Assembly (NCBI GenBank): GCA_015143295.1
Contig: CM026557.1
Span: 25,763,760-25,827,759, forward strand
DNA length: 64,000 nt
Source: Tetracentron sinense
Taxonomy: Eukaryota; Streptophyta; Magnoliopsida; Trochodendrales; Trochodendraceae
Direction: 5' to 3'
Both the position numbers and the translations under genes were made by a program. The first letter of the stretch is position 1. Every line of letters begins with the position of its first letter. Below are positions 3,851-49,138 of the stretch, in pieces. Under the pieces are notes generated by a model that had not been told where the DNA came from, ran no database searches, and saw only the letters and a program-made list of their open reading frames with translations.

Positions 3851-3991
3851 ATGTCGGCAGGTTCCGAGGAAGCCCTCGACCTGGAGCCTTGGGTCGAGGA
3901 AGAGTACGTAGAGGAGAGGGAGCCATCTATTCTGTTATAGTCGCAAGCGGATAGAGACTTGGACGTGTGGCTGTACCTCGACTATTGTTGA
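3851..3991 (+). pseudogene. LTR small ORF (46 codons), one premature stop
   Basis: ATG TCG GCA GGT opens a frame encoding MSAG, then LEPWVEEEYVEEREP, then DRDLDVW, ending at TGA 3989-3991. Codon 30 is TAG where related LTRs at 12188, 26460 and 22725 have CAG (Gln), so this copy is interrupted by a C-to-T type change. It sits just after the LTR stem-loop and before the 'ggtgggcatgtccacc' inverted repeat. The family is not recognised; the product would be small and strongly acidic. Confidence 0.55.
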
Positions 3992-4285
3992 GGGGAGAGT
4001 ACAAGAGAGTTCCTTTTGTGTATTTTGATATTTTGATAGGTGGGCATGTCCACCTCTAACTTGATATGTTCTGTGTATGTTAATTTGGAATACTATTTTG
4101 GAATTTTAGAAGAAAAGAAAAAGTTAGTTTACGCTTCCGCATACATGTTTAGCTTCCTTGCTCTGATCATTGTTAGTATTGTATTATGTTAGCCTTGTTT
4201 ACTTCAGGATGGTTTGGTAGGTACGATTAGTCACTCCTAAAGTATCCCTTAACTCCTAGGGGGTATTTTGGGGCGCGACATGAAC

Positions 4286-5079
4286 ACATACCCAGATTAA
4301 CACCTGGATTGCTTTGGAACCGACTAACAACTCCCACTGCATGACAGATATCCAATCTAGTACATAGTATGGTATACATGAGGCTCCCAACTGCCGAAGC
4401 ATAAGGGCACCTCTTCATCTGCTCGATCTCATCAGCTGATGTAGGGGCCATCTTTTTAGACAAAGTGACACCATGTCTAAAAGGAATGAGAGTTGTCTTA
4501 CAATCACTCATACTGTACCTAGACAAAATCTTGTCTATGTAGGAAGTTTGGCACAATCCCAACATTTGGCATTTCCTATCTCTTAGATCTTTATTCCGGG
4601 AATATAGGATGCCTCTCCCAAGTCTTTCATTGAGAAATTCTAAGAAAGCCAAATCATGACTGATGATAGCATCCCTACATCATTCCCAATGAGTAGGATG
4701 TCATCTACATAAAGAATTAGGAATACTACCGCTCTCCCACTGTCCTTCTTGTATATACAAGATTCCTCTAAATTCTTTTGGAATCCAAATTCTTTGATCG
4801 AAAGATCAAATCATTGGTTCCAACTTCTGGAAGCTTGTTTCAAACCATATATCGACTTGTTGAGCTTGCATACCATGTTCTCCTGGTTAGGAGCAATAAA
4901 GCCCTCAGGTTGCTTCATATAGATGTCTTCATCTAACATTCTATTAAGGAAAGTAGTTTTGACATCCTCTGCCATATCTCGTAGTCATGATGTGCAACTA
5001 TAGCCAGCAATATCCTGATGGATTTGAGCATAGCTACAGGTGAAAAGATATCCTCATAATCAACTCCTTGAATTTGAGT
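4286..5079 (-). pseudogene. Copia 1 reverse transcriptase (decayed)
   Basis: Minus-strand fragments of copia RT. The 4227-4652 frame contains the C-terminal RT/RNase H connection (YIDKILSRYSMSDCKTT, then YASAVGSLMYTILCTRLDICHAVGVVSRFQSNPG) and breaks at the solo LTR at 4286. The segment 4653-5079 carries the rest of the palm region with several stops and frameshifts, so the YVDD-type catalytic box is not in an open frame. It continues from the integrase/RT frame at 5080-5625. Confidence 0.8.
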
Positions 5080-6653
5080 TTAACCTTTTGTAACAAGTCT
5101 AGCTTTATAGGTTTCCACGTTACCATCGGCACCCTTCTTCCTTTTGTAAATCCATTTGCATCCAATTGGCCTTATACCATCTGGTGGATCTACTAAAGTC
5201 CAGACGCCGTTTTCATATATGGAATCTATTTCAGCATTCATGGATTTATTCCATTGATATACATCTACATCTAATGTAGTTTCATGATAAGTATTAGGAT
5301 CAGTATCCTCATCATCAGGGGTAACTAGATAAACCTCATTATTGTAATATTGAAGTCTATCTGGTGGTCTAAAAACTTTTTCAGACCTTCTCAGTGGAAC
5401 AGAATTAGAAGAATCAATAGTGGAAGGATTAGGTTCATCTTGGATACTGGCTGAGTGGTCTTTCATCTCATGAAATTCAACCTTCTTAAGAAGATCCATT
5501 TCTTCCTCCAAGAAAGTGGCATGATGCCTAACAACTATTGTTTGGTCTGCCTTGGAGTAGAAATAAAAACTCTTAGTTTCTTTTGGATATCCTACAAAGT
5601 TCCATTTTTCTGTTCTACATTCCAATTTAGTGGGTTTGAGTTTGCGAATATGTGCAGGGCAACCCCAAATCCTTAGATGTTGTAAATTAGGTTTTCACGC
5701 AGTCCACAATTCATAGGATGTAATCGGTATTGCCTTAGATGGAACCCGGTTCAGAATGTAAATGGCAGTTTGTAAAGCATATCTCCAAAGATAAGAAAGT
5801 ACATCAACATTGCTCATCATAGAGCGAACCATATCCAATAAGGTTCGGTTTCTTCTTTTAGAAACACCATTTTATTGAGGTGAGGTAGGACTAGACCATT
5901 GCGAGATAATCCCATTATCCCTTAAGTAATCCATAAACTCTTTGGTGAGGTATTCTCCACCTCGATCTGATCGAAGTGTCTTTATGGATTTGTCTGTTTG
6001 ATTCTCAACTTCTAATCTGAATTCTTTAAACTTTTCAAAGGTGTTAGATTTGTGTTGCATCAAATAGACATATCCATATCTAGAATAGTCATCAGTAAAT
6101 GTGACAAAATACTGGTATTGCCCTAGTGTAACAATGTTAAATGGACAACATACATCACTATGTATGAGTCTTAACTTTTCTTCAGCTCTTCCTACCTTTT
6201 TAGGGTAAGGCTTCTTGGTCATCTTCCCTTCGAGACAAGACTCGCAAGTAAGGACTGGTTCTACCTTGAGAAATTCAAGGAGAACATCTTTTACCAACCT
6301 CTTGATCCTATCAAGATTAATATGACCAAGTCTCTTATGCCAAAGATAAGTAGACTCAGTGCAAGGTCTCTTCATTCCAGACATTCTAGATGATGGGGCA
6401 TTTTCACTTTGCAGACATTCATTATTACCAAAGGAAATATTAAATAAAGACCATTAATGAGATTACCAGTAATCAAGACCATTTCATCTTTCTTAATTTC
6501 AAAAATTGAATTAAAATTGATAGAGATTCCACAAAATAAAAGTCTAGATACTGAAATCAAATTACGATGTACAGAAGGCATATAAAAGCAGTCTTCTAAA
6601 ATTAATGTCTTTCCATTAGGTAAATAAAGAGTAAAGAAGCCAATTGACGTCAC
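5080..6653 (-). pseudogene. Copia 1 protease tail, integrase and RT start
   Basis: Three open pieces in element order. 6653-6372 contains LPNGKTLILEDCFYMPSVHRNLISVSRL, the segment after protease. 6384-5872 carries the integrase zinc-binding part (HKRLGHIN, then CESC) and the catalytic core (HSDVC, TFTDDYSRYGYVYLM, LRSDRGGEYL). 5625-5080 covers the integrase C-terminus and the RT entry (WNKSMNAEIDSIYENGVWTLVDPP, IGCKWIYKRKKGADG, ETYKARLVTKG). A stop after WSSPTSPQ and one at 5079 break the polyprotein. Confidence 0.88.
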
Positions 6654-6679
6654 TACAACATTTGCACCTGAGCCAACTT

Positions 6680-7695
6680 TAAGCTTCTACTCCTGTTTGG
6701 TCGGTTTTCTGGTTTCCTTGAACTCGTGCAAACAATTGCAAACATATACAGTGGATCCAGAATCCACGCACCATGAATTAGGAGGACCATCCAGAAAGTT
6801 TGACGCAACAATAATTAATACTTCAAAGCATCTCATACCTTGAGTATTGGCACCTCCCTTCTTAAGAGTTATAAGGTAAGTCCTACAATTCCTCTTCCGA
6901 TGGCCTATTTTACCACAGTGGAAACACTTTCCCTTACCTTTGTTTTCCTTGCCAGTATCACCTAAAGAACCTTTGGCAACTCTTGCCTTACCCCTATTGT
7001 CTTTGAACTTACCTTTGCCCTTATTCCCTTTTCTAAACTTTTTAGATCGCTTGGAGGTATTAGGTTTATCGATAATTAAAGCTTCACCCTTTGTTGACTT
7101 TTTGATCAAATCTTCTGCAGCCACAAGTGAGTTCATAAGCTCACTTAGTGACATTTCACTCTTGTTCATGTTATAATTTAACATGAACGCATTAAAGGAC
7201 AAAAGGAGTGACTGCAAAACAGTGTCAACTTGAGTGATGGCATCTATCTCTCCACCAAAGAATTTCCAGCTCATTTAATAAGCCCATCATCTTTATGATG
7301 TGCTCTCGAACTGGAGTTCCCTCAGCCATCTTGGTGTTAATAAGGGTTTTGAACTTTACTTGTCGAGCTGATCTATTCTGCTCACCAAACATCTCATGCA
7401 GGTTTTGCAAAATGTCAGAAGCCTTATCCATGTGTTCATGCTGGCTTTGCAAAATGTTAGACATCGAAGCCAGTATGTAACACTTGGTCATTTGATTGGA
7501 CCTCTCCCATTTCTCCAATTCAGCCTTTTGGGTCAGTGATGCATTGATGGGAATTTCAGGTTTAGGTGTCTTAAGACATAGGTCAAGGTTATCCGCGGTA
7601 AATACTATTCTAATCTTTCTTTTCTAGTCTACATAGTTAATTCCAACTAACTTTTCATCACGAAGAATTTTAGTTAATGGGTGAAGGCCTATCAT
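6680..7695 (-). pseudogene. Copia 1 gag and start of protease
   Basis: Starts at an ATG at 7695. An in-frame stop follows soon after (KLVGINYVD then stop, where copia gags usually have NYxxWK). The 7518-7225 piece is the gag helical region (SNILQSQHEHMDKASDILQNLHEMF). The 7274-6687 piece has a basic linker, the CCHC zinc knuckle CFHCGKIGHRKRNC, and the aspartic protease motif WCVDSGSTVYVCN. There is a frame change between the two pieces near 7250. Confidence 0.85.
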
Positions 7696-12187: not shown

Positions 12188-12328
12188 ATGTCGGCAGGTA
12201 CCGAGGATACCCTCAACCCCGAGTCTTGGGTTGAGGGAAAGTATGTAAAGGAGAGAGAGCCTCCTATTCCGAGGCAGTCGCAAGTAGATAGAGACCTCGA
12301 CGTGTGGTCATACTTAGATTACTATTGA
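12188..12328 (+). CDS. LTR small acidic ORF, intact 46 aa
   Basis: ATG TCG GCA GGT opens an uninterrupted 46-codon frame to TGA 12326-12328. It encodes MSAGTED, then PESWVEGKYVKEREPP, then DRDLDVWSYLDYY. Length and register equal those of the copies at 22725 (minus) and 26460 (plus), although the surrounding arrays are unrelated. No known domain is recognised. It could be a small protein, or the last exon of a spliced product, because 'tcggcag' before the GT looks like a 3' splice site. Expression is not shown. Confidence 0.5.
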   Translation: MSAGTEDTLNPESWVEGKYVKEREPPIPRQSQVDRDLDVWSYLDYY

Positions 12329-14738
12329 GGGGAGCGATAGCGGGATCTTGTCTTTTGTATTTTGATACTTTGATAGGTGGGCATGTCCACCTTCACCTTG
12401 ATGTTTGTGTCTGTTCATGTAAACTGGGAAAACAGATTACCTTATATGGAAAAGAAAAAGTTGGTCATGAGCTTCCGTACTCTGATTAATCTCATTATTA
12501 TGTTACAATTATCTTGTTCATTACAGGATGGTTTGATAGGCACCAATAGTCACCTCTAAAGTATCCCTTAACTCCTAGGGGGTATTTTGGGGCGTGACAT
12601 CACCGGTGAAGCAAAACCAATTCGAACCGTCAGAACTCCTTGTAAAGATTTCTTGAAGAAATACTCGAAGCTCGATCCTTATTCTTCGCTATCCCTGCGA
12701 AGCTTTAGAATCTCTACTTGGAATTGAAGAAGCGAGAAGAAGAAGATGGATGTTGGTGTAGACTTTCTATCACCCAAAACTCTAAGGATTCAAAACCCAA
12801 CTTGTTGAACCCTATAAAGCTCACAAAAATCCAAGGGGTATTCCCCTTGGGGCTCACGGTTTGGAGAGAGAATTGAGAGAGAAAGAATTCAATTGGAATG
12901 AAAGCAATAATCACCCCACACGTTTTGGGGTATGGGGTTATTTATAGGATTGGATGAAATCCTAATCCTAATCCTAATCCAATTTAGAAGTTATCCCTTA
13001 GTAATTATTTAATAATAATAACTCTTATTATTAATTAAATAAAAACCTAGTTTATATATAACTACTTTAGTTATATTAATCCTACTAATTTAGGAGTCCT
13101 TTTCAAAAAGGGATTCCTTAATTAAAAGGATTAACCAACAAACAAAATTGGAATCCTAATCCAATTAAGAAAGCATCCAAAGGGGGGGCGTGAACCATAG
13201 GGGGCATGAGCTATAGGGGAGAATTAGACTCCTAGTTGTAATCCAATTACAACTCATCTCCATTAATCTTGCAATCCAAGTATTGGAATTTAATTCCATA
13301 ATTAAAATAGTTATTATTCAATAAGAATTCAATTAACCTAATCCTAATCCAATTAGGAAAGCTAAAGTGGGCACCTCACCCTCGGGTTTTAACCCATGGA
13401 CTTTGGCCCACTATTAAGGTCCATGTTTTATGGGTTTATGGATATGGGTCAAACCCATTTCCCCTTTCATTAGGTTAATTAAATAATTACTAATATAATC
13501 CTCTAATTTAAATTAACAATTAATTTAACCCATAGATTAACTTTTAATCTATTTAATCAATGATTAATATTTAATCATTTAAATAATTGAGTAACACTTA
13601 ATCAATTTATGAGCTTATATTTCTTATGTGAGCATCTCCACAGATTGCTCTGGGACATTCAAACCCTGACTTACCCAATGTTATCCCATTGACCCTAAAC
13701 AGGAATTACATCGGAATTGCAAGTGACATGAGATATCTATGTTGCAATTGAATCCTAGTGTAAGAACATTAATTAATACGGATCCCACCACATGAACTTT
13801 TAAATTCAATTTATCCTACCAATTACATTATCCCTAATGGGCCTTCAAGATTATTTATATTATCCAACTCATAGCCCATTGCACATCAACCGAGTTTCCA
13901 AGACTTCTTATTAAGCCATGAGAAACATTTTCTCATGTAAAACATTTTGATAAAAACATTTTATAAGTAAAATATATTTTAAATAAAATATATTTCAAAC
14001 TTATTTTGTTTCAAAATCACTTGCGCAGGATTTAAGCTTAATTGACTGTCTTACCCAGAACTTGGATAATCTCTCAAATTAATGAGTATAGATTTCTTGT
14101 TTGAAATTCATCATGACTCGAACAGCTTTCTAACTATCCAACTGTCACTGTATCGTATTCCCTAAGGTAGAGAGTACTTTGGTGGAATCAAAACAGTTAG
14201 ATTACTACTCGGTTATAAATGAACTCATCAGATCTAAGGATCATTGAAACCGTTCAATGTGAATGAGAGATAAACTATCCAATAGTATATTTATGCAAGA
14301 GGTCTCTCATTGAATGCAATTAGTCAGTGTACATTTAAGCACCCACATGCTGATGTGTAGTCTCCACTATAATAGTTTGAGATAAAAATACATTTCAACC
14401 ATTGAGAAAATCTTAGCATTATGGTAGCCATATAAGTGAAGTGCCCAGCTTCACCCATAGTTTTGACTGCCGTGCCCCAAAATACCCCCTAGGAGTTAAG
14501 GGATACTTTAGAGGTGACTATTCGTACCTATCAAACCATCCTGTAATGAACAAGGTAACATAATACTATAAAGACCATAATCACAGTGCGGAAGCTAAAT
14601 CATGAGTGTGGAAGCGTGAACCAACTTTTTCTTTTCTTCTATAACTCAAACCTGTATTCCAAGTTTATACAGATAATATATGAAGTCAAAGGTGGACAAA
14701 CCCACCTATCAAAATACAAAAAGAACTATTGAACCCAC

Positions 14739-17511
14739 TGTGAGCGCGGGAATTTCCCTCCACTCACAAAAAGAGAAAGAGTAGATGTATTTACCTTGTG
14801 TGTCCTCACGGGTGTGAAAGGGTTTTAGAGTTGCCACCTATTCATTCAGAAGGGATAAATCCCTCGGGTTTGGATAAGGTCTTGGTCTGTGATTGAGATC
14901 AGGGTAAGGGGTTCGGTTAAGTCCGGGAAAGGTGTTAGGTGCCCCGAGGCTTCCTGTCTTACAACGGTTCCGTACTCCCCGGGTTTAAGCTAAATAAAGT
15001 TAATCTTGATTAGAATGTCGAGGTGTTTAAGTTAACACTAATTCAAGAAAGGAAAAGTTAACTGGGGTCGAACCCGGATTGGGTTGCCTGTGTACTCACA
15101 GGGTGAGATCAGACCGAGCATAGTTCTAGCACGTGAGCTTGTGCCGAGGCTAAGGGTGTGTGTGTGTGCACCAAGGGAAGCTGACATGGACTAGTCCGGT
15201 AGACTAGGGTTTTGGTTGACTGAGGAGGGTCAAGTGCAAGGTTTTTAAGCCTGGTAGGCTTAGAGGGTAGTTTGGTAGACAAGGATGGAGTCCGACCCAG
15301 GTTAGGGTTGCTAACCGAGGTTAGGCTGAACTAACTGTGGTTAGGTTGCTAACCATAGTCAAGGGGAAGTGAGATTTATCCCGGTAGGCTAAGGCGGGGT
15401 CCGATAGGCCGAAGGTAGTCCTGTAGACTTCGTTTTTAGGCTTAGTAGGCCATAAACTAGAGTTAACTGCGATTAGGGTTACTAACCAGAGTTAAGGGGA
15501 TTCTAACTGTGGTTAGGGTTGCTAACCAGTGTTAGGGAGAGTGCCAAAGTCAGTATTATGATCCGATTATATTTTTAGAAATTTTCGTTTAATTTTCCAC
15601 AATTTTGAAGGGTGAAGGGGTGCTTAACCGCGGTTAAATGTTAATCGGAGGGGTATTTAACCGTGGTTAAGGGTCTAGTACAGTCTGAGGTGGGCCCAGG
15701 GGGCTAGGTAGGGCCTAAAGTGGCCTCCTGCCAAGCTTGGGCCCCTGCAAAAGCTCAGAATCAAAACAAGAATAATGTCGATAATTGGATTACTGACATT
15801 ATAAATAGTGTTTTTTTAACTATGGTTTTGCCAAAGTTTACTAGGGTTAAGATGTAACCCAAGGTGAACCAAGGTCAGGGGAGTGAAGAGGATACTCAGG
15901 GAATCTTTTGAGTCTGGTTTGGGCCCCATGGGATGCCTGGAGTGGGCCCCACAAGGCTGCAAAGATGCGATAGTAGAAAGCTCATATTGGCGGTAATTAT
16001 TCTACCACCAATCAAAAACTAGGCCAAAACAGTATTGTCGGTAGAAGGTCTACTGATAGTATGCACAATGTTGGATTTCAGGGATTTAACCATGGTTAGG
16101 CTTAACCCAAGGACCTAGAAGGACCAGGTCTGGTCCAGGGGAGTGAGAGGGATCCAGTTTGGGCCCTGGACATGGACCAAGGCCCACCTAAGTAGGCCAA
16201 ATGAAGTTTAAACAAAGTGTGCCAGGAATAGCGGTACTGAGATTACCGCCATTCCTGGTTTTCTGTGAAACTGGGATGGTGCCCATGGGGGCTATGTACA
16301 GAGGTGTCTAGGGGTTCCCTCATGATTTGAGGGACCCCTAGAGGATCCGTGGTGGTCTGCCAAGCATAGGGAAGAGGTGTATACCCCGTAGGGGTTCACC
16401 ACACCTATGAACAAGGTGGGTGAACACCCTGTTGGGTTTGGGAAGCTAAATAAACACCAACAAAAAAATGAGATGTCCCCTAGAGATGACTAAGGGTTCA
16501 CATGATGGATGGAACAGCAATAAAGAATGGGTAGGGGGCGTCCCTACCCTGTACTCTGCTTCTGCCAGAGTGGGTGTAGCCTGTGCACGGTGGTGGTGCG
16601 CCCTGGTATTGCTACACGAACAAGGGAAAGGTGAGGTAGGTTCAGGAGAGTCCTAGGATCAAGACCAGGGGTCTGGGAGAGGCTGAGGTTCAGACCTTTT
16701 CGCAACAAGGTTTTCCTCTAGGATTTTTACCGACCTTTGAACTGCTGGTGGAGCTTGGGTTTTATAGAAAACTCTAAAGGGTACCTAATAGGGTTTAAGG
16801 AGAAGGGGGAGAAGGGCATTGGACCAAGGGGAGGTCGACTAAGAGACCTGAAGGGAGAGATCGAGGTGAGGGTTGAGTGTGCAGCGGTGTTCGCAGACAG
16901 TAACTCGTAACTTGCATATTGTCGATAGAAGATCTACCGATAATATGAAAACAGGCTAATTTATAATGTCGGTAGACCTTCTACCGACATTATGAGATTT
17001 GCTTTTAAATGGGTTGGGCCCTGCACATATGGGTATGGGGGGTTGTTCTAAGGTTTTTTGGGCCTGGTGGGCTTGAGGTTATGGGGTCAGCCCTATAGGC
17101 CATGGGTTTTAGGGTTTTAAGCCCTGAGGGCTCTAGGGTTATGCTAGGGTCACCTAAGGCTAGGATTTTTGACATGGGCTTGACTTAGGGTGAGTCCTAA
17201 GGTTTAACTAGGGATAGGTCCTAGGGTTTTAACCAGGGTTGAGTCTAGGGTTTAACTAGGGTTTTAACTAGGGATAGGTCCTAGGGTTTTAACTAGGGTT
17301 GAGTCTAGTGTTTACCTAGGGTGTAGCTAGGGTTTAGCTGGGCTTTACCTACGATTAGGGTTTTGGTTCTAGGGTTTTCTAGGGTTTGACTTAGGGTGAG
17401 TCCTAAGGCTAACTAAAGGCTTACCTAGGGTGCAAGGGATTTGGAAGAGAGTAACCATAGTTAAAAGACTTTAACTATGGTTAGATGGGGTGTAAAAATT
17501 GGGTGCTTACA
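14739..17511 (+). mobile_element. Solo Ogre/Tat-like LTR (2773 bp)
   Basis: Starts TGTGAGCGCGG and ends GGGTGCTTACA. Flanks are CCCAC (14734-14738) and CCAAC (17512-17516), a 5-bp duplication with one mismatch. The uninterrupted target is seen in the sister LTR near 22575 ('cccactatgctcaacag'). It contains AACCATGGTTAA-like palindromes, repeated 'ccggtaggc' motifs, six roughly 27-bp palindromes between 15773 and 16993, and a 3' part rich in degenerate 'ctagggtttt' repeats (17080-17420). Assignment to Ogre/Tat rests on LTR length and on a Tat-type gag elsewhere in the window, so the lineage is inferred. Confidence 0.85.
16963..16993. repeat. Perfect 13-bp inverted repeat in Ogre-like LTR
   Basis: ATAATGTCGGTAG, a five-base loop, then CTACCGACATTAT. 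It is the cleanest member of a dispersed family of about 27-bp palindromes in these LTRs; others lie near 15773, 15987, 16033, 16230 and 16918, and on the other strand near 240, 412 and 622. Confidence 0.9.
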
Positions 17512-17521
17512 CCAACAACGC

Positions 17522-17662
17522 TCAACAGTAACCTAAATATGGTCACACGTCGCGATCTCTATCCTCCTGCGACTATATTGGGATAGGAGGCTCTCTCTCC
17601 TCTACATACTCTTCCTCAACCCAAGGCTCAAGGTTGAGGGCTTCCTCAATACCTACCGACAT
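17522..17662 (-). pseudogene. LTR small ORF in element A 3' LTR, decayed
   Basis: Same register and length (141 nt including the stop) as the intact copies. It reads MSVGIEEALNLEPWVEEEYVEE and then has two premature stops: TAG in place of a Gln codon and TGA in place of the Trp codon near the end. The final TGA lies at 17522-17524. The sister copy in the 5' LTR (22585-22725) is intact. Confidence 0.55.
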
Positions 17663-18159
17663 AAAAGTACAGCTGAGTATGGAATACTTAACAAGTACAA
17701 GCTACTAGCTAGCAATAGTAATAACGTACACAATAAAAACAACGAGATATGGTTCATCACATAATTTAAAACGATAATAGCAACACAAGACATTCATAGC
17801 ATAAACAGTAAAGCAATGTAATAGTCTTGACATGTATGAGTGAATGCTAAAACTTGATAAAACTCATGCTTTAAAAGTCATGTCTTGTTCTTGAAAATAG
17901 CCTTTCGTGTTTCCAAAACTTGCTTGTCATGTTTTAAAACTTGTTCTTGTATCATGGGAATCACACATGTCTTTTCTTGTTCTTGTTTAGAATCACTTGT
18001 CTTGCTTGTTCTTGTCATGTTCGTGACTTGTTCTTGACTTGACTTGCTTGTATACTTGTGAGCTAGAGGTTCGTGCCCTTGAAGCGACTTGTCAGGAACG
18101 TATGTTACCTTCAACGAAATATATATATAGAAAAGGGTACACCAACCTCCTTGTCTTGT

Positions 18160-18360
18160 TTTGTGAGCCAGGTAAGACATATCTTGCGATATGCCCTACC
18201 CTTGACATTCATGCTTTGTTTACTTATAAGTCAGGTATGACATATCCTAGGGATATGCCCTACCCTTGACCGGCCCGATGTCCGGCTTTATCAACTTGCT
18301 TGTTTTTCTTGTGAGCCAGGTATGACATATCCTAGGGATATGCCCTACCCTTGACCGATC
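18160..18360 (-). repeat. Hairpin repeats in element A 3' LTR
   Basis: Three units of 'gccaggtatgacatatcc'...'gggatatgccctaccc' separated by 'tgtgagcc' spacers. The core GACATATCCTAGGGATATGCC is an inverted repeat. The same array, slightly diverged, is at 23213-23407 in the 5' LTR. It holds the position occupied by other hairpin minisatellites in other LTR subfamilies. Confidence 0.85.
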
Positions 18361-19362
18361 CAAATTTCGGCTTGATCATGCTTGTTTCGTGAATCACATT
18401 TCTTGTTCTTGTTGTTTTCTTCGATACATATACTTGAAAACCCGATTCATACATGCATGCATGCTTGTGGATGTGATTCGTGAACATATTAATGGCATGG
18501 AAAGATTGAGGATAACATATAGTATTTGAACAATTATAGGCACGTGAGAAATTTAGGAGATTCATGAGCACATCATCATATTTACAAATTCTTGGGAAAA
18601 TATCCCTATCTCAGATCTCATAGATTTGGTTTCACATTTCACACATGCAATAAATGAAACACCTTGCATGCACCATTTTCCTCACTCTCATTCATGTGTT
18701 CTTAGCCTTAGTTTTTCATCTCATTCATTCATTTTATCAAACATATGGCAATCAACATCTTTGAGAGTATTTTATTCATGTTTTCGGTTCAAGGAATTCA
18801 TCAAGCACATAAAGTATGTTCATTATGAGTACATTGCCCTTCCATCATTTTCGTCACACATCATTTATCCCCAATCACACATCATTAATTCATTAGTTCA
18901 TCTTATGCATTTTTAGGTAACCTTAGTTCATTTCAAATTGGAAAACACCAAACCAAAGCATCATCATTTTTCAAACAAAACCTAGGTTACTACTAAGTTA
19001 GTTAGTAAGGGTGTACTAACCTTAAAGATCAAAGCTTAATCTTGAAGAAATCCCTTGATTTAGGAACCCCACTTGGTGTAGAAGATCTACTTGAACAAAT
19101 GCTCCAAGCTTGAAGTGGGGAAGGATCCACAACTTGAAGAATGGAGGAACTCTTGCTTGAGTGAGGAGGATCTAAGCTAGATCTTGGGTTCTTCTTCCTC
19201 CAATCCAACTCCCTTGAAAGAATCTCCAAATCTCCTTGCTCTTCCTTTCTCAATCTCCTCTTAGTCTCTCTAGGTTTAGGGTAAGCCAAAAACCCTCCAA
19301 TTGGAAGCCCTATTTATAGGCAAAGGGTGAAAACCCTCAAAATCATGCTCAAACAGTTGGAT

Positions 19363-19520
19363 TCGCGCATCTGCGAGCATTCGTAGGCTTCCTATGATCG
19401 ATCGTAGGTTTTCCAGTGGGTTTACAGTATTTTTTGGACCTTACAATCGATTGTAGCAACTCTACGATTGTTCGTAGTGCCGCTACGATCGTTCGTGGGT
19501 CGTTTACAAACGATCGTACC
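19363..19520 (-). repeat. TACGATCGTTCGTAG palindrome array in element A 3' LTR
   Basis: At least six near-palindromic motifs of the type (C)TACGAT(C/T)GTTCGTAG, for example at 19397, 19444, 19466 and 19485, lie about 45 bp from a TATAAATA box at 19311-19320 (minus strand). The 5' LTR has the matching array at 27386-27543. Confidence 0.8.
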
Positions 19521-20503
19521 TGGGACAAAAAGTTTCTAGGTTTTTTGCACTTTCGTATTTCGGCCATAACTTTTGACTCGCTATTCAGATTTTAACGATT
19601 CAATTTGCGTTGGATTCTTCCTTCAAAGAGGAAAAACTTTGATGTTTTGAAAAATTCTAATTTTTCTTTATTCATAGACCAAAATGACCCTAAAGCTGAC
19701 TGGTCTGCAAATGGACTTCGACAGTCAAGATTTGCAGCAGACCCGATTTCAGAAATCGGATGTTTGACTTAACTCCAACTCAAAATCCGGAAAAGTGATC
19801 AACATGTACCTCGAATAGGGTTTAAATACCTTTCCAAAGATTCAAGAATCACTAGATTCTGATAAGCAGTGAGAAAACTATGCCCCCCTAAAGTGAAGGG
19901 TATGCGAAGACCTTTTTCTTCTTTTCAACTTCGATTATATTTTGATCACTTAGAGTGTTTCACACTCTTGTTTTAACATCCTTAAGCTATTCATAAAGGT
20001 CCTTAGGACCCTAACATAAGTTCTAACACATCCATGGAACAAAAACCCCATGAACACTAAGATCCATGTCGCCTTGACACCATAACGCTTAGGGTATTTC
20101 ATATCCCATTTACCTTGAATCCAACCCCTATTCCATTCTCATAACTCACGGCCCTAGGTTCTTAAACCAAACCAAGGTAACCCTTTAGGCACATCACATA
20201 TGCATGGGAGGCCCCGGCCGCTACAAAATCCCTTAATTTGATACTATTCATAGCACTATTCACTTAACGGTTAGAGTATGTTTTTATACTCTTTGCATGT
20301 TTCCCAAAACACCATACACCCCTTGATTCATGCACTAAACTCACATCACACTCAGGCCACGAGGAAACCCTCACTCTCATTAACCAAACCCAACTTATAA
20401 TAAAGGCCTTTGGCCCTTCCAATACTAATGCCCTCAGCACTATTCACTCACATGAACAGTGCTTGTACATGAACAGTGTTTGTAGAAAATCCGGGGCTCT
20501 ACA

Positions 20504-20520
20504 TCCTCCGCCCTTATAGA
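20504..20520 (-). promoter_or_regulatory. Element A polypurine tract
   Basis: The minus strand reads TATAAGGGCGGAGGA directly before the 3' LTR start TGTAGAGCCCCGG. It resembles the intact tract of element B (TAAGGGGGGAGGGA at 38465-38478). This is the plus-strand priming site. Confidence 0.75.
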
Positions 20521-20829
20521 AATGTCATCCTCGAAATTTTGACTTTTGTGAACAAGTGAGGATACTTTCCCACACTTCATTTAGGTCGGACGAGCCTTCG
20601 TACCTAGTAATACTAAACACGTCCACCAGAAATTTAAATCCCACGCTAACCAATCCCCTAGCTAGGCACACGTTACACCCAACTAAATCAACAATGTATT
20701 GTAGTACACATAGAATATACATAGCATGTTCATACACATATATAAACATACATCACATACTATTGACAATTTATAGACCACAACTTGAATTGAGCGTTCC
20801 CTGCACGACATCGTCAGATGCACGTGCGT

Positions 20830-22011
20830 CCTGTTCTGACAAGGCGAAGACTCGACCCTGAGTATTCTAGCGAGGCGGCCATGTAAACTGTGAGGGCCTC
20901 GATGCCTTTGAAGGGCTCTGCTGGGAGAACTGCCTAATCAGGGGCCTACTCCCCTGAGACTGAGATGGCCTCTGTTAGTAGGGACAATCTCTAATTGTGT
21001 GGCCCTGGTCACGACAATGAAAACACCCACCGAAAATCTTCCTACACTCTCCGGCCACATGCCTCCTACCACAAAGAGTGTAGATGTCATACGAGTAAGT
21101 GAAGAGAAGGGAGCATATCCCATAGCCTGAGGTAGCGCAGGGCGAGGTGCCTGAGTGGTAGTCGGGTGTGAAACCGGTGGAGCAAATGAACGAGGAGCCT
21201 GTGGTGTAGAATACAGCCTCTGTGACTGTGCTAGCCCTGAAGGCTGGTATGGTGTAGTCATAACTCTCTTCAATGCTGAGGCACTAGACTAGCCTCTCTC
21301 CATTCCCCTTCTCTTGAGGAATTCCTCAGAATTAGACTCGGCTAGCTAGGCCTTTTCCACCACTTCAACATATTTCTCATGCCTAAACATTGAGACTCTG
21401 TCCTTGAGGTAGGCCTTCAACCCCCTCTCGAATTTTTGGGCCTTCATCGCCTCGGTAGCTATCATGTGAGGAGCAAATTTTGATAGCTACAAAAACTTAG
21501 CCTCATAAGCGACTACTGACAAGTTACCTTGCTCCAAGGTAATGAACTCGATCTCCTTTTCTTTCATCCCGATGAGGAAGTACTTCTTGTAAAAGACGTC
21601 TAAGAAATCTCCCCATGTCCATTCTTGGCCTTGCCGGGTCAACTCACTGGTCCTAAGTGTGGACCTCCACCAATGGTCGGCCTCGCCTTCAAGCATAAAG
21701 GCGGCCCAAGTGACCCTCTCTGCCTCAATTGGTGTCAATACAGAGAAGATCTTTTCAAGTTGCTGGATCCATCCCACAAAATGTTGGAGGCCTCATCCTC
21801 TGAAAAGCCTCTATTTCGTCTTGTGTTCGATTGGGGGGAGCAGTTAAAAGTACGGCATTAAGAGGAGTAGCTGGTTGCCTCGCCGCTAGCATAGCCAAAG
21901 TCTCGGCTATTGATTCAAAAGCTTGGGAGAAATCGATTGTTCATCCCCCGATGGAGCATCACCCACATTGCCCCTCGTGTTGTATCCGCGACCCCGAGTA
22001 TTGCGTCTCAT
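20830..22011 (-). pseudogene. Element A gag (decayed)
   Basis: The ATG at 22011 gives MRRNTRGRGYNTRG, matching the gag start of element B at 33757 (MRRGIRGRGYHTRR). The capsid-like region is open at 21777-21487 (WIQQLEKIFSVLTPIEAERVTWAAFMLEGEADHWWR, then YEAKFL). A proline-rich tail follows at 21273-20938 with a frame shift. The last recognisable gag residues are DARASDDVVQG near 20800, as in element B. Stops near 21960 and 21480 and frame changes disable it. No pol follows, because the next part is deleted. Confidence 0.85.
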
Positions 22012-22289
22012 GATTAGATCCTGAAATGACAATACACATGAGTCTAACTTGGATACGCATTTAGTAACAATTTCAAGACTCACTCAATGCATATTCACTA
22101 AGCTTAGAATAATTTCATAACATACAATCCGTGTCCCTAGCATAAGACTCTAAGTTCGGTTGAAGTTCAACCTATTTTGACTAAGACTAACTCGTTATTA
22201 CATACTTGGAATACGACTCTTTCGTATGACCCTAATGCCTTGTTCAATCATGGTACAAGTACTAAGTGACCCTAGGGACTCTAATGCCT

Positions 22290-22306
22290 AAAGCTCTGAC
22301 AACACT
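22290..22306 (-). promoter_or_regulatory. Element A primer-binding site (degenerate)
   Basis: The minus strand reads TGTTGTCAGAGC just inside the 5' LTR end at 22309, a two-base variant of TGGTATCAGAGC (tRNA-iMet). It supports the LTR boundary. Confidence 0.6.
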
Positions 22307-22584
22307 TCTGTCATGCCCTAAAATACCCTCTAGGAGTTAAGGGATACTTTAGAGGTGACTATTCATACCTGTCAAACTATCCTGTAATGAACAAGGTAAC
22401 ATAATACCATAAAAACCAAAATCAGAGTGCGGAAGCTAAATCATGAGTGTGGAAGCATGAACTAACTTTTTCTTTTCTTCTATAACTCAAACCCGTATTC
22501 CAAGTTCATACACATAACATATCAAGTCAAAGGTGGACATGCCCACCTATCAAAATACAAAAAGAACTATTGAGCCCACTATGC

Positions 22585-22725
22585 TCAACAGTAATCTAAA
22601 TATGGCCACATGTCACGATCTCTATCCTCTTGCGACTGTATTGGGATAGGAGGTACTCTCTCCTCTACATACTCTTCCTCAACCCAAGGCTCATGGTTGA
22701 GGGCTTCCTTAATACCTGCCGACAT
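22585..22725 (-). CDS. LTR small acidic ORF, intact 46 aa
   Basis: Starts at the ATG at 22725 in the invariant ATGTCGGCAGGT context and ends with TGA at 22585. It encodes MSAGIKEALN, EPWVEEEYVEERVPP, DRDRDMWPYLDYC. Upstream codons in this frame are also open, so longer products cannot be excluded; the conserved block starts at this ATG. The register matches copies at 12188 and 26460. Function is unknown and there is no recognised domain. Confidence 0.5.
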   Translation of the reverse strand: MSAGIKEALNHEPWVEEEYVEERVPPIPIQSQEDRDRDMWPYLDYC

Positions 22726-23212
22726 AAAAGTACGGCTGAGTATGGAATACTCAGCAAGTATTCTACTAGCTAACAATAGTAATAACATACACAATAGAAA
22801 CAACGAGATATGGTTCATCACATAATTTAAAGTGATAATAGCAACACAAGACATTCATAGCATAAACAGTAAAGCAATGTAATAGTCTTGACATACATGA
22901 GTGAATGCTAAAACCCGATAAAACTCATGCTTTAAAAGTCATGTCTTTTTCTTGAAAATAGCCTTTCGTGTTTCCAAAACTTGCTTGTCATGTTTTAAAA
23001 CTTGTTCTTATATCATGGGAATCACACATGTCTTGTCTTGTTCTTGTTTAGAATAACTTGTCTTGCTAGTTCTTGCATGTTCGTGACTTGACTTGCTTGT
23101 ATACTTGTGAGCCAGAAGTTAGTGCCTATGAAGCGACTTGTGAGCCGGGAACGTATGTTCCCTTCAACGAAATATATATATAGAAAAGTGTACACCAACC
23201 TCCTTGTCTTGT

Positions 23213-23407
23213 TTTCTTGTGAGCCAGGTATGACATATCTTGTGATATGCCCTACCCTTGAAATTCATGCTTTTTTACTTATGAGTCAAGTATGGCATAT
23301 CCTAGGGATATGCCCTATCCTTGACCGACCCGATGTCCGGCTTTATCAACTTGCTTGTTTTTCTTTGAGCCAGGTATAACATATCCTAGGGATATGCCCT
23401 ACCCTTG
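23213..23407 (-). repeat. Hairpin repeats in element A 5' LTR
   Basis: Three units matching the 18160-18360 array, with the core 'catatcctagggatatgcc'. One unit is changed in the loop ('atcttgtgatat'). The unit number is the same in both LTRs, so the array was present before insertion. Confidence 0.85.
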
Positions 23408-24164
23408 AACAACCCAAAGTTCGACTTGATCATGCTTGTTTTGTGAATCACATTTCTTGTTCTTGTTGTTTTCTTAGATACATATACTTGAAAACCCGAT
23501 TCATGCATGCATGCATGCTTGTGGGTGTGATTCGTGAACATAATAATGGCATGGAAAGATTGAGGATAACATATAGTATTTGAACAATTATAGGCACATG
23601 AGAAATTTAGGAGACTCATGAGCACATCATCATATTTACAAATTCTTGGGAAAATTTCCCTATCTCAGATCTCATAGATTTGGATTCACATTTCACACAT
23701 GCAATAAATGAAACACCTTGCATGCACCATTTTCCTCACTCTCATTCATGTGTTCTTAGCCTTAGTTTTTCATCTCATTCATTCATTTTATCAAACATAT
23801 GGCAATCAACATCTTTGAGAGTATTTTATTCATGTTTTCGGTTCAAGCAATTCATCAAGCACATAAAGTATGTTCATTACGAGTACATTGTCCTTCCATC
23901 ATTTTCGTCACACTTCATTTATGTAGCACCCCGGACTTTTTCATCCTTAATGAATAGCACCTTCGTAGCTAATTGGCCGTTTTTGTAGTCTAATTAATAA
24001 ATAAGGGAGAAATTGGAAATTCCGAAACTTCAGAAATGTTCCTTTTCGAAGTACGAACCCAACTCAAGTTGAATCGTCAAAATCGGACGAACGAGTCAAA
24101 AGATATGACCAAAACAGTCTGGACCTACAGGCAATCATAGCTCGGAAGGCACTAAGGACGTAGC

Positions 24165-26459: not shown

Positions 26460-26600
26460 ATGTCGGCAGGTACTGAGGGAGCCCTCGACCTGGAGCCTTG
26501 GGTCGAGGAAGAGTATATAGAGGAGAGAGAGCCGGCTATTCCATTACAGTTTCAGGCGGACCAAGACCTCGATGTGTGGCCATACCTCGACTACTATTGA
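26460..26600 (+). CDS. LTR small acidic ORF, intact 46 aa
   Basis: ATGTCGGCAGGT starts an uninterrupted frame to TGA 26598-26600, encoding MSAGTEGALDLEPWVEEEY, then IEEREP, and DLDVWPYLDYY at the end. It follows a stem-loop (GCTGAG and CTCAGC arms at about 26430-26450) and precedes 'aggtgggcctgtccacct'. Differences from the copies at 3851 and 12188 are often third-position or conservative. The product family is unrecognised. Confidence 0.5.
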   Translation: MSAGTEGALDLEPWVEEEYIEEREPAIPLQFQADQDLDVWPYLDYY

Positions 26601-31457: not shown

Positions 31458-31687
31458 TGTAGAGCCCCTTCATTCCCCTATGTAATGGATAGGGTGTGAA
31501 TAGTGCTCAAGTGTAGTTTTGTATACTTGTGGGTTTTGTATAGATATATGAGTTTGGATATTTGGCGTGCATGTTTCAATAGGTCCACATATCACCAAAG
31601 AGTATGTATTAAGCCTTAAAGAGTATTAGAATTGGATTGAAAAGGTTCCAAGTAGGGAGAACAAAGTTTTGGCAGAAAACAGGAGGC

Positions 31688-31858
31688 ACCGATCGCTCGG
31701 TCATAACGTCCGATCGACCGGTCAACTACCGATCTCTCGGTAGCTATCGCGCGGTTAACTTTTTTGTATGGGGTTATTTTCCAGACATGGTGTTTTTAAC
31801 CGAGCTCTCGGTTGAAACCACCGATCGCTCGGTCTATACCACCGATCGATCGGTTATG
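31688..31858 (+). repeat. CGATCGNTCGGT array in element B 5' LTR
   Basis: About eight motifs such as CGATCGCTCGGT, CGATCGACCGGT and CGATCGATCGGT. Their spacing and order match the 3' LTR array at 38714-38882 with point changes. The TATA box lies about 55 bp downstream. Confidence 0.82.
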
Positions 31859-31910
31859 CGCAGAAATTCTTCATTAAGGGTGTTTCAGAATTTAACCATT
31901 TCCCATTTGC

Positions 31911-31919
31911 CTATATAAG
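31911..31919 (+). promoter_or_regulatory. LTR TATA box (CTATATAAG)
   Basis: Near-consensus plant TATA box in the expected place between the palindrome array and the transcribed leader. The copy in the 3' LTR is at 38937-38945. Related boxes: 10239, 19311 (minus), 27331 (minus), 44583, 50083 (minus). Confidence 0.65.
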
Positions 31920-32873
31920 GCTGGACTCGTGCCTTAGGGTTTTAGAAACCCTTTGTGCACTGTTTTGGAGCTAGAGAAGAGGAGAAGAAGGAGAAGAGCT
32001 TGGTGATTGTTCAAGCTTGAAGGATAGATCGATTTCTTCCTTCCTTTGGTGATTCTCAACCAAGAACTCACTGTTCTTGCTTGTTCAAGCTTTTGGGGAT
32101 CTAGTTCTTTGATTTCTACAAGGTAGATACACTCTACTACAATCTTGCAATACTATTAAAGTTATTCTTCTATCTCTATACAACTTGTGTTTTGGTGGAT
32201 TATGGTGTGACAGCACGTATTTATATACTTGGATGAAAGATACTATTATGATGCACTCTAAGTGTTTGATAAAATACCTCTAAAGGATTCTATGCTTAAT
32301 ATGATGATTCCTTGCATTAAGTTCATAAGCTCGCATGTCTCGCATGAACCGATGGTTTCTACGGATTTCACAAAGTACGAAAAGGGTTTTTCACTCAAAA
32401 GACTATTAAGGAACGATTCTACGTAACTCTATGATTTGTCTAAGATCGTCTCACAAGCTCTACAGATCATACTATGCTCACAAGGAACACTCACAAGGAA
32501 CTCTATGATAAGCTCTAAGATCGTCTCACAAGCTCTACGGATCATAACTCATAAGCTCTAAGATCTCTATGGTATTGGCTCTAAGGATATGCTCTATGTG
32601 CTCTATGGTATCTCTATGTCTCTACGGATCATAATGACTCTAAGTAACTCCATGAACTCGCAAGAACTCATAAGACTATGATTAACGGTTGACTCACACG
32701 GTTACAGTTTGTTTTGATTTCGGATCTCATCTCACATGTGTTTTATGGTTTCTATGATCTCACATGTTTTAAGGATTTCAATCTCCATGCCTTGTATGCT
32801 CTATGATATATTGCTTTATTGTTGTTAGTTTGTATACGCTGAGTATTCCATGCTCAGCCGTCATTTGTTATGA

Positions 32874-33014
32874 TCGGCAGGTTCTAGGGATCGCTTCGAT
32901 CTGTGTGGCTCAGAGCCTTGGGTGGAGGAAGAGTACTTCGACCCGGAGCCTTCCATGGATCATGATCAGGGCTATGGTCCAGTAGATAGGTGTCGAGAGT
33001 TTCATTTCTATTGA
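32874..33014 (+). CDS. LTR small acidic ORF, element B 5' LTR; no in-frame ATG at usual place
   Basis: The frame from the conserved TCG GCA GGT runs 46 codons to TGA 33012-33014, encoding SAGSRDRFDL, then SEPWVEEEYFDPEPSMDHDQ. The EPWVEEEY core matches other subfamilies. Here the codon before TCG is TGA rather than ATG, so translation would need an upstream exon joined at the 'cggcag' acceptor-like site, or a later Met. It is open in both LTRs of the element. Confidence 0.4.
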   Translation, partial: SAGSRDRFDLCGSEPWVEEEYFDPEPSMDHDQGYGPVDRCREFHFY

Positions 33015-33291
33015 CCGACAGACTTGGTTAATAGGATTATACAGTGTTTTGTCTTTTGGATTATTACACATGTATCTTTTGTTGGTTTATACTTGAACCA
33101 CGTATAGGAGTGTTATCTTTTGCTTCCACTATATTGGTATATTTTTCCGCTGTGCATTATTTTCGTTTCCGCATTATACTCTGACAGGTTTCTATGTTTT
33201 ATGCCTTATGTATTATACTGGAGGTATGATACGGCGGTCACGAGTCAAAGTATCCCTAACTCCTAGTGGGTATTTTGGGTCGCGACAGACT

Positions 33292-33393
33292 TGGTATCAG
33301 AACTAAGGCATTAGGTCACATAGGCTAGTGTCTTTTGAATTAGAACTAGGGATTATTCTACTTTGGGTCTGATACCAGACTTGGTATCAGAGC
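33292..33393 (+). promoter_or_regulatory. Primer-binding site, duplicated
   Basis: TGGTATCAGAAC lies 4 bp inside the LTR (33292-33303), and a second, better match TGGTATCAGAGC is at 33382-33393. Both are followed by 'cattaggtcac(a/g)taggctagtg', so about 90 bp of leader have been tandemly duplicated. Only the first is at the normal distance from the LTR. Confidence 0.8.
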
Positions 33394-33756
33394 AAGTCAT
33401 TAGGTCACGTAGGCTAGTGCCTTGATCAAGTCGAGACTGTCTAAGGTCTAAAAACAGATTTAGTGTCGGAGCTTAGGCATTAGAAGCGGAAGTAATTCCT
33501 ATGAGTTGAACTTAGAACTCAGATGGACTTGTTGTACTAGGCTTGTTACTACGATTCAATTGGTAGCAAGTGGATCTTTAGGATGGTCTAGGAAATTTTC
33601 TAGGTTCTAGTGTCTAGAACTCTAAGTTATAATTATTGATTATATGTATACGATATGCTTAAGAGCAATTCATGAATATTGAACTGCTATATGATGTGTG
33701 AGGTTGGTATCCAAGTTAGACTCATGTTTTGCCAATTAATCTCAGGATTTGACATC

Positions 33757-34975: not shown

Positions 34976-34981
34976 GTACGC

Positions 34982-35116
34982 GTAAGTTGATCTTATCAAA
35001 GTTATAACATTGCTATGATGTGTTATGTAGTGTACGTGTATCCTATGTGGTGTTTTGCGATGCTTGTATCTATATGTATAGTTTATGTGTATAACTCGGG
35101 TAGTGAACATTCTCAG
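34982..35116 (+). other. Intron-like segment between gag and protease
   Basis: The gag frame ends in VVQGT and meets a strong donor-like GTAAGT at 34982. An AG acceptor at 35116 ('ttctcag') or 35128 returns to the protease frame (LLVNECLARVLIDTG) in the correct phase. The segment itself is AT-rich with stops. Element A has a diverged counterpart after its VVQGT near 20650-20790. Splicing is inferred only. Confidence 0.45.
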
Positions 35117-38478: not shown

Positions 38479-40415
38479 TGTAGAGCCCCGAAATTTCATT
38501 CCCCTATGTAATGGATAGGGTGTGAATAGTGCCCAAGTGTAGTTTTGTACACTTGTGGGTTTTGTATGGATATATGAGTTTGGATATTTGGTGTGCATGT
38601 TTCAATAGGTCCACATATCACTAAAGAGTATGTATTAAGCCTTAAAGAGTATTAGAATTGGATTGAAAAGGTTCCAAGTAAGGAGAACAGAGTTTTGGCA
38701 GAAAACAGGGGCCACCGATCGCTCGGTCATAACGTCTGATCGACCGATCAACTATCGATCGCTCGGTAGCTGTCGTGCGGTTAACTTTTTTGTATGGAGT
38801 TATTTTTCAGAGAGGGTGTTTTTAACCGAGCTCTCGGTTGAAACCACCAATCGCTCGGTCTATACCACCGATCAATCGGTTATGCACAGAAATTCTTCAT
38901 TAAGGGTGTTTCAGACTTTAACCATTTCTCATTTGCCTATATAAGGCTAGACTCGTGCCTTAGGGTTTCAGAAACCCTTTGTGCACTGTTTTGGAGCTAG
39001 AGAAGTTTAGAAGAAGGAGAAGAGCTTGGTGATTGTTCAAGCTTGAAGGATAGATCGATTTCTTCCTCCCTTTGGTGATTCTCAACCAAGAACTCACTGT
39101 TCTTGCTTGTTCAAGCTTTTGGGGATCAAGTTCTTTGATTTCTACAAGGTAGATACACTCTACTACAATCTTGCAATACTATTAAAGTTATTCTTCTATC
39201 TCTATACTACTTGTGTTTTGGTGGATTATGGTGTGAAAGCACGTATTTATATACTTGGATGAAAGATACTATTATGATGCACTCTAAGTGTTTGATAAAA
39301 TACCTCTAAGGGATTCTATGCTTAATATGATGATTCCTTGCATTAAGTTCATAAGCTCGCATGTCTCGCATGAACCAATGGTTTCTACGGATTTCTCAAA
39401 GTACGAAAAGGGTTTTTCACTCAAAAGACTAATAAGAAACGATTCTAAGTAACTCTATGATTTGTCTAAGATCGTCTCACAAGCTCTATGGATCATACTA
39501 TGCTCACAAGGAACTCTATGATAAGCTCTAAGATTGTCTCACAAGCTCTACGGATCATACTATGCTCACAAGGAACACTCACAAGGAACTCTATGATAAG
39601 CTCTAAGATCGTCTCACAAGCTCTACGGATCATAACTCACAAGCTCTAAGATCTCTATGGTATTGGCTCTAAGGATATGCTCTATGTGCTCTATGGTATC
39701 TCTATGTCTCTACAGATCATAATGACTCTAAGTAACTCCATGAACTCGCAAGAACTCATAAGACTATGATTAACGGTTGACTCACACGGTTATAGTTTGT
39801 TTTGATTTCGGATCTCATCTCACATGTGTTTTATGGTTTCTATGATCTCACATGTTTTAAGGATTTCAATCTCCATGCCTCGTATGCTCTATGCTCTATG
39901 ATATATTGCTTTATTGTTGTTAGTTTGTATACGCTGAGTATTCCATGCTCAACCGTCATTTGTTATGATCGCCAGGTTCTAGGGATCGCTTCGATCTATG
40001 TGGCTCAGAGCCTTGGGTGGAGGAAGAGTACTTCGACTCGGAGCCTTCCATGGATCATGATCAGGGCTATGGTCCAGTAGATAGGTGTCGAGAGTTTGAT
40101 TTCTGTTGACCGACAGACTTGGTTAATAGGATTATACAGTGTTTTGTTATGTGAGTGTGGGATTTGTTCACTCCACTTGTCTTTTGGATTATTACACATG
40201 TATCTTTTGTTGGTTCATACTTGAACCAAGTATAGGAGTGTTATCTTTTGCTTCCGCTATATTGGTATATTTTTCCGCTGTGCATTATTTTCATTTCCGC
40301 ATTATACTCTGACAGGTTTCCATGTTTTGTGCCTTATGTATTATACTGGAGGTATGATACGGCGGTCACGAGTCAAAGTATCTCTAACTCCTAGGGGGTA
40401 TTTTGGGTCGTGACA
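38479..40415 (+). repeat. Element B 3' LTR (1937 bp)
   Basis: TGTAGAGCCCCG to GGGTCGTGACA. It is closely similar to the 5' LTR but has an additional copy of the 'gaactctatgataagctctaag' block near 39500-39600, and retains a 35-bp inverted-repeat segment ('gtgagtgtgggatttgttcactc') at 40147-40180. The palindrome array is at 38714-38882 and the TATA box at 38937-38945. Confidence 0.95.
39969..40109 (+). CDS. LTR small acidic ORF, element B 3' LTR
   Basis: Same register and length as at 32874-33014, ending at TGA 40107-40109. It encodes SPGSRDRFDLCGSEPWVEEE and then YFDSEPSMDHDQ. The GGCAG of other copies is GCCAG here. As in the 5' LTR, no ATG precedes it in frame. Confidence 0.35.
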   Translation, partial: SPGSRDRFDLCGSEPWVEEEYFDSEPSMDHDQGYGPVDRCREFDFC

Positions 40416-46393: not shown

Positions 46394-46528
46394 TCGGCAG
46401 GTCCAAGTTCAGGTTCAGGCTTCGACATTTGTGTTCCCGGACCGTGGGAAGAAGAGGAGTATATCGAGGAGCCTGAAGGTGACTATCCTGAGGAAGAAAG
46501 GGACCTTGATCGATGGCCCTATTATTGA
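46394..46528 (+). CDS. LTR small acidic ORF, 44 codons
   Basis: From the conserved TCG GCA GGT the frame runs to TGA 46526-46528, encoding SAGPSSGSGFDICVPGPWEE and then EEYIEEPEGDYPEEERDLDR, WPYY. The PW-x-EEEY core and the DLD-x-WPY ending match copies in other subfamilies although the DNA around it is strongly diverged. There is no ATG before it; TTG precedes TCG, with stops just upstream. Confidence 0.4.
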   Translation, partial: SAGPSSGSGFDICVPGPWEEEEYIEEPEGDYPEEERDLDRWPYY

Positions 46529-48997: not shown

Positions 48998-49138
48998 TCA
49001 AAAAAATTCGAAGTCTCTACACCTATCTACTGAACCATCGTCCTGATAGTGGTCCATGGAAGGCTCTGAGTCGAAGTACTCCTCCTTTACCCATGGTTCC
49101 ATGCCATATAGATCAAACGGAGTTCGAGCACCTGCCGA
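48998..49138 (-). CDS. LTR small acidic ORF, 46 codons
   Basis: From TCG GCA GGT at 49138 the frame runs 46 codons to TGA 48998-49000, encoding SAGARTPFDLYGMEPWVKEE and then YFDSEPSMDH. The register and length equal element B. The codons before TCG are TTG TTA TCA, so no conserved ATG; an internal Met (GMEPW) exists. Confidence 0.4.
   Translation of the reverse strand, partial: SAGARTPFDLYGMEPWVKEEYFDSEPSMDHYQDDGSVDRCRDFEFF

Follow-up and report, generated by a model that had tools for sequence, protein, structure and literature searches.

The LTRs of plant elements are generally regarded as non-coding control DNA, and the locus analysed here, a window of 64,000 nucleotides from Tetracentron sinense, raises the question of why LTRs of Ty3/gypsy elements should hold the same short, stop-terminated reading frame at nine sites. 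The original prediction was that a peptide is under selection. Codon-level maximum likelihood (ML), neutral simulations and indel counts on the window's nine copies support it and, judging from its sequence, the frame is genuine and has evolved in the manner of coding sequence. We further propose, at roughly even chances of being right, that the LTRs of these Tekay-like Ty3/gypsy elements carry a conserved coding exon, and that its copy in the 3' LTR serves as an alternative last exon, likely joined to gag.

All nine predicted sites are present, in the element sense and at the positions claimed, apart from a small correction to one group (see below). An HMM of the LTR region matches the same nine and no tenth; its one extra match (E 0.037) spans only sequence downstream of the frame. 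In all nine copies, the frame lies inside the LTR boundaries. The copies form three groups. F1 comprises three solo LTRs (F1a, 3854..3991, +, with one internal stop and the acceptor-like junction before 3861; F1b, 12191..12328, +; and F1e, 26463..26600, +, nested in the 5' LTR of element B) and the 3' and 5' LTRs of element B (F1c, 17522..17659, -, with two internal stops; F1d, 22585..22722, -). F2 comprises the 5' and 3' LTRs of element A (F2a, 32874..33014, +, predicted exon start 32881; F2b, 39969..40109, +, predicted terminal exon start 39976) and a solo LTR (F2c, 48998..49138, -). The most diverged copy, F3 (46394..46528, +), is again a solo LTR. Exactly seven of the nine are open, where six or seven had been stated, the exceptions being 3854 and 17522. 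Other details needed amendment: the five F1 ranges, all of which opened at an ATG one codon ahead of TCG, were corrected; the common start TCG GCA GGT does not hold at 39969 (TCG CCA GGT) and at 17522 on the minus strand (TCG GTA GGT); and the nine sites are not independent, as 32874 and 39969 are the LTRs of one element and 17522 and 22585 those of another. The encoded stretch has about 43-45 residues, is acidic (net charge -5 to -12) and rich in the aromatic residues W, Y and F, and ends at a fixed TGA. Its PW-x-EEEY core is kept, often with DLD-x-WPY near the end, but EPSMDH, previously counted as part of the core, is confined to one family (32874, 39969 and 48998).

Element A (5' LTR 31458..33287, 3' LTR 38479..40415, both +) is probably a Tekay/Del-like chromovirus. 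The Pfam families Retrotrans_gag, Ty3_capsid, RVT_1, RT_RNaseH and Integrase_H2C2 are above the cut-off, rve and zf-CCHC are below it, and the C-terminal end before the 3' LTR is chromodomain-like by eye (...LVKWQHHSKEEATWEWE...YPHLFG, then a stop). The element is broken, with stops in gag and pol. Element B (14467-28524) has a frameshifted gag and is missing most of pol; both of its LTRs are interrupted by nested insertions, of which one is a complete solo LTR, and a tandem repeat with a 26-bp period (24237-24860, 17 register copies listed) is located inside the nested solo LTR at 23922-26884. At 54086-56676, 4227-7623 and 59720-60460, exons resembling a PDR/ABCG transporter gene and minus-strand Ty1/copia fragments were seen by eye.

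For the nine copies from this one locus, codon ML gave an omega of 0.253, not near 1 (2dlnL 44.4 vs omega 1; kappa fitted on a grid under the null; 3 stop codons of 407 masked in the codon alignment). The shifted sense frames of the same copies yielded omega values of 1.26 and 2.05, and the antisense frame that shares third positions yielded 0.39 (2dlnL 22.4) with 18 stops, as a shadow of the sense frame would. In 120 data sets simulated neutrally on the nucleotide tree, the maximum 2dlnL was 4.9 and the minimum omega 0.655, against 39.9 and 0.27 observed; one data set had as few stops, and none reached the observed signal. Because the three groups had been aligned by protein, the coding test was rerun with nucleotide-guided alignments (362-383 codon cells in register; 0-6 out of register, dropped). 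All four settings agreed, two of them with nearly identical results (omega 0.24-0.29, 2dlnL 32-42). Frame-breaking indels are likewise not as common in the frame as in its flanks: the 10 within-family pairs have none in the frame vs 94 in three flanking windows per family (about 138 nt each; 36, 29 and 11 in F1, and 2, 10 and 6 in F2), and 34 of the 38 indels in the upstream flank are not multiples of three.

Pairwise comparisons indicate when this selection acted. The two LTRs of the same element have a dN/dS of 1.01 in one case and 0.64 in the other, each based on few changes (5 and 11), whereas copies from different elements range from 0.14 to 0.48 within F1 (nine pairs) and from 0.16 to 0.18 in F2 (two pairs). 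In comparisons between groups, saturation of dS is frequent, and dN/dS scatters from 0.13 to 1.19 where it is defined. Near-neutral pairs within elements, together with constrained pairs between elements, indicate that the peptide was selected while the lineages replicated, a pattern that is expected if it mattered for replication and drifted after insertion.

The frame opens at the acceptor-like site TCGGCAG/GT, where a block of nucleotide-level conservation ends. The AG/GT is kept in all nine copies. The bases past the GT vary between copies, which is unlike a donor, and a donor at this site was therefore rejected. The composition of the frame is exon-like: in all nine copies, it has 45-53% GC and 21-30% T, compared to 32-39% GC and 40-45% T in the 150 nt upstream and 30-40% GC and 35-45% T in the 150 nt past the stop. 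The final 40 nt ahead of the AG contain 30-40% T and are not clearly U-rich. A contrast between GC-rich exons and T-rich introns in plants has been described (PMC3735527). At the frame start, the codon pair is ATG TCG in F1, TGA TCG in F2a and F2b, and TTG TCG in F3, so there is no conserved AUG. In-frame ATGs occur further upstream in F1b, F1d, F1e and F2c. In F2a, F2b and F3, the frame is preceded 9-18 nt upstream by in-frame stops, which excludes a single AUG shared by all copies. Thus, the small ORF of the original prediction holds as a coding frame but probably not in a self-contained form, and the lack of a conserved AUG combined with the acceptor-like opening makes a spliced coding exon the more likely reading.

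Inverted repeats flank the frame. About 20-40 nt ahead of the acceptor-like AG/GT lies a conserved repeat, GCTGAG-TATTCCATG-CTCAGC in the element A copy (32838..32858, +), which is found in F1 and F2, imperfect in some copies, while F3 has a different repeat near the same place. A second inverted repeat is located about 50 nt past the stop (26590-26790 and homologous places; AGGTGG...CCACCT in F1 and GAGTGG...CCACTC in the minus-strand copy at 48998). This second repeat, H2, was considered as a covarying hairpin and rejected, as no pair is changed on both sides as aligned and the stems of the two families are offset.

In seven of the nine LTRs, those with an assigned TATA box, the frame lies downstream of it (about 960 nt downstream in the element A 5' LTR, TATA box 31912..31918, +), which places it in the transcribed part of the LTR and not in U3. 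Repeated palindromic CGATCGCTCGGT / CGATCGATCGGT motifs were seen by eye ahead of the TATA box in several LTR families (31690-31860, 2135-2360, 44440-44515 and 50155-50340); they might be bound by proteins or be targets of methylation. Past the TATA box, a donor-like site would end a leader exon 1. Its GT starts a short hairpin in all eight LTRs in which it was placed, with the stems GTAGA/TCTAC, GTAG/CTAC or GTTAGTA/TACTAAC, compared to a background of 4.7% of the 6886 GT sites in the window with a stem of 4 bp or more in this position. In element A, the donor-like site forms the 5' arm of AAG/GTAGA-TACAC-TCTAC (32123..32137, +); the other hairpins start at 2752, 10685, 25166 and 39149 (+) and at 49880, 27042 and 19020 (-). 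This arrangement suggests a structure-masked 5' splice site, which could balance splicing against genomic RNA.

The putative leader intron of element A (32123..33745, +) would run from the exon 1 donor to the acceptor-like CTCAG/GAT, 11 nt ahead of the gag ATG at 33757; the corresponding distance in element B is 9 nt. Counted from 32 nt past the TATA box, leader exon 1 contains a single ATG vs 12.0 expected (six LTRs, 1481 nt), and the tract from donor to frame contains 404 vs 267.7 expected (eight LTRs; the F1a donor was placed 28 nt upstream of a better site, a small count error). An AUG-poor exon 1 and an AUG-rich tract, as would be expected for an intron, along with the donor- and acceptor-like sites, make a spliced leader likely. 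In F3, neither donor nor exon 1 could be placed. The frame was also considered as part of an AUG-scanned leader and rejected, since with 19 ATGs vs 20.3 expected it is, unlike exon 1, not AUG-poor. Extra acceptor-like sites (TTACAG/GAT or TAACAG/GATG) were seen by eye near the LTR end at about 12526 (+), 22382 (-) and 46733 (+).

A candidate splice partner is found at the end of gag. In element A, a putative gag/pro intron of 141 nt (34976..35116, +; phase 1) has the donor CAAG/GTAC, the acceptor CTCAG/GTTC and 40% T, vs 22% and 29% alongside, and thus has the features of a BARE/EVD-type intron, U-rich and with consensus sites at the gag end. Without it, gag and pro would be spaced by 10 residues, which is also the spacing in P0003, P0006 and P0007, relatives that lack the intron (hand count). 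A second candidate GT 6 nt downstream (GTAAGT) is in the identical phase. The LTR exon also starts in phase 1, an agreement that would arise by accident one time in three. A T-rich insertion of similar kind is present in element B but lacks a GT at the donor place (CAGGGAACG), so that the donor is seen in element A only. The related Gag P0004 ends in VVQGTSSQSFITAWY, which reads as if it had been translated into such a gag/pro intron. The LTR-encoded tail is absent from all six relatives that reach the gag end, among nine Gag relatives (candidates 0.55-1.75x the query length). In a Tekay-like element, the gag/pro intron is a possible switch from Gag to Gag-Pol.

From these features, we infer splicing itself, gag as the partner, use of the 3' LTR copy and a role for the tail. 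The exon would be entered at the 3' splice site TCGGCAG/GT and, in the 3' LTR, would form an alternative last exon with a U-rich stretch behind it; the donor would most likely be that at the gag end. As this donor is in the same phase, the product would be a variant of Gag extended by about 45 residues of acidic tail encoded in the LTR, made beside plain Gag and Gag-Pol. Unspliced RNA would serve as the genome, and leader-spliced RNA would give Gag if the gag/pro intron is retained, Gag-Pol if it is removed, and tailed Gag if gag is spliced to the 3' LTR. Positioned after the zinc-knuckle region, the acidic tail could moderate the binding of nucleic acids or bring in a host factor. Owing to the exon's place in the LTR, each solo LTR would also be a portable terminal exon available for splicing onto host genes. 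The full scheme, in which retention, gag-to-pro and gag-to-LTR splicing turn one transcript into Gag, Gag-Pol and acid-tailed Gag, hairpins at the splice sites tune the choice, and solo LTRs provide host genes with portable terminal exons, is a tentative suggestion with the balance somewhat against it.

Other explanations of the frame have to be weighed against this proposal. Few related copies, transition bias and the protein-guided alignment could in principle produce a statistical artefact, and F1 gives some reason for caution. On its own, this group yields an omega of 0.37 and a 2dlnL of 11.0, and it cannot separate the sense frame from its antisense shadow (2dlnL 11.1, with 8 stops vs 3 in sense). 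When windows of 45 codons were scanned in F1 (123 tried, 73 usable), the frame came third. The top-scoring window (16.2) shares sequence with the frame's second half, the runner-up, at 11.0, is unrelated and contains 14 stops, and the window directly past the stop scores 7.6 and 6.0. The rank and these background scores render F1 alone inconclusive, and the case rests on the combined evidence. F2 alone (omega 0.33, 2dlnL 7.5) places the frame first of 74 windows, kappa was fitted, the neutral simulations and the nucleotide-guided alignments concur, and the frame is free of indels, which leaves an artefact scarcely credible. Selection at the RNA level, on a purine-rich splicing enhancer (GAGGAAGAG) and junction hairpins with the acidic peptide as a by-product, would fit the inverted repeats at both splice-like sites and past the stop, and GAR-rich codons resemble exonic enhancers. 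However, it predicts no codon periodicity, and the reading is strained by an omega that is 0.25 in the frame but exceeds 1 in each of the two shifted sense frames; moreover, the codons conserved near the C-terminus do not form purine runs, and H2 lacks covariation as aligned. We therefore regard it as highly improbable.

If the peptide itself is selected, it might still be produced in other ways than by splicing to gag. A self-contained, AUG-started small ORF (MLSRTFMSAG... or MSAG...) in an unspliced transcript could act as a micropeptide or a regulatory upstream ORF. The ATG TCG of all five F1 copies would suit it, as would the in-frame upstream ATG CTC AG(C/T), by which the open frame of F1b, F1e and F2c is lengthened, and the 141 nt open upstream of F1d with several ATGs. 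We nevertheless consider it unlikely, as F2a and F2b have a TGA directly ahead of TCG which, being common to both LTRs of element A, was present at insertion, F3 has no in-frame ATG, and 30-64 ATGs per LTR lie between the exon-1 donor and the frame (eight LTRs). Alternatively, the exon may be spliced at TCGGCAG/GT to a donor other than that of gag, for example elsewhere in pol or in an upstream host exon. The coding evidence is independent of the partner, and the missing donor GT in element B would agree with such a reading. Yet among the places surveyed (the gag end, leader exon 1 and the GT at the pol stop of element A), only the gag end independently suggests an intron in the right phase. 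Leader exon 1 is without an AUG in F2a, F2b, F2c, F1c and F1d and has in-frame stops just ahead of its donor in F2a, F2c and F1d (by eye), and the GT at the pol stop codon of element A was rejected as a partner because it runs straight into a stop (by eye). A donor other than that of gag thus seems distinctly unlikely, and an LTR exon joined to gag is the reading that we prefer.

Database searches found no relatives of the peptide. As an alignment, the seven stop-free peptides gave no candidate with enough shared words to score among 5.8 billion proteins and no match among PDB sequences; in viral contigs, they gave 19 pattern stretches, none of which was confirmed. Four of the nine peptides matched no Pfam family at E up to 1. 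The pattern WGTATTYCATRYTCAGYCG was found in 46 prokaryote and 4 viral stretches, and part of the element A pol in two stretches of viral contigs, neither confirmed. Rfam at gathering scores detected nothing in the window. The best match of the HMM of the LTR region on 50 loci (12.7 bits, E 0.0068, 43 model positions, L012) was taken as chance. In the portion of the open-access literature consulted, no description of a coding exon inside the LTR of a plant element was found. Already known are coding sequence in an LTR (MMTV Sag) and extra Tekay ORFs at the 5' end of the element. If true, a conserved LTR exon would provide an abundant class of plant elements with a further protein isoform and suggest how plant elements separate Gag from Gag-Pol. 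Solo LTRs would then bring a ready 3' splice site, a coding frame, a stop and probably a poly(A) region beside genes.

Protein-coding sequence in an LTR is familiar from MMTV Sag and HIV Nef, both of which are located in U3 and have their own start codons. The LTR frame shares with such accessory genes a coding sequence within the LTR under purifying selection, but it is short, has no conserved AUG and lies downstream of the TATA box, not in U3 upstream of the promoter. For sag of MMTV, a mouse betaretrovirus, purifying selection is stated in the abstract of PMC11998498 and positive selection also in its conclusions. With about 45 codons, its acidic product and its position inside the LTR, the frame also differs from the Tekay aORFs, which lie at the 5' end ahead of GAG-POL. 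These 5' aORFs are outside the LTR. An extra conserved protein of Tekay elements without known relatives is described in work on Tekay 5' aORFs (PMC11728184) and on plant aORFs (PMC7264820). The sunflower aORF has about 400 aa and a nuclear signal.

Spliced plant elements offer a further comparison. Ogre belongs to Tat and not to the chromoviruses; its intron position differs from that of the gag/pro intron here, and the descriptions drawn on mention no LTR exon. In EVD (Arabidopsis, Ty1/copia), splicing produces shGAG, a separate, well translated Gag message (PMC8892269), and sunflower elements likewise make spliced Gag messages (PMC7730604). Unlike the arrangement proposed here, splicing in EVD is coupled to premature cleavage/polyadenylation within the element and involves no 3' LTR exon, and the sections drawn on describe no conserved tail. 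In BARE1 (barley, Ty1/copia), a U-rich intron that is spliced facultatively lies directly beyond the end of gag. Its junctions are CAG/GTAT and CAG/GA, and its splicing yields a Gag-only message with a new short C-terminus (PMC3735527). BARE1 belongs to another superfamily, its intron is at the start of the pr domain, and its splicing adds about three residues encoded outside the LTR; nevertheless, as proposed for element A, it combines an intron near the gag end with an altered Gag C-terminus.
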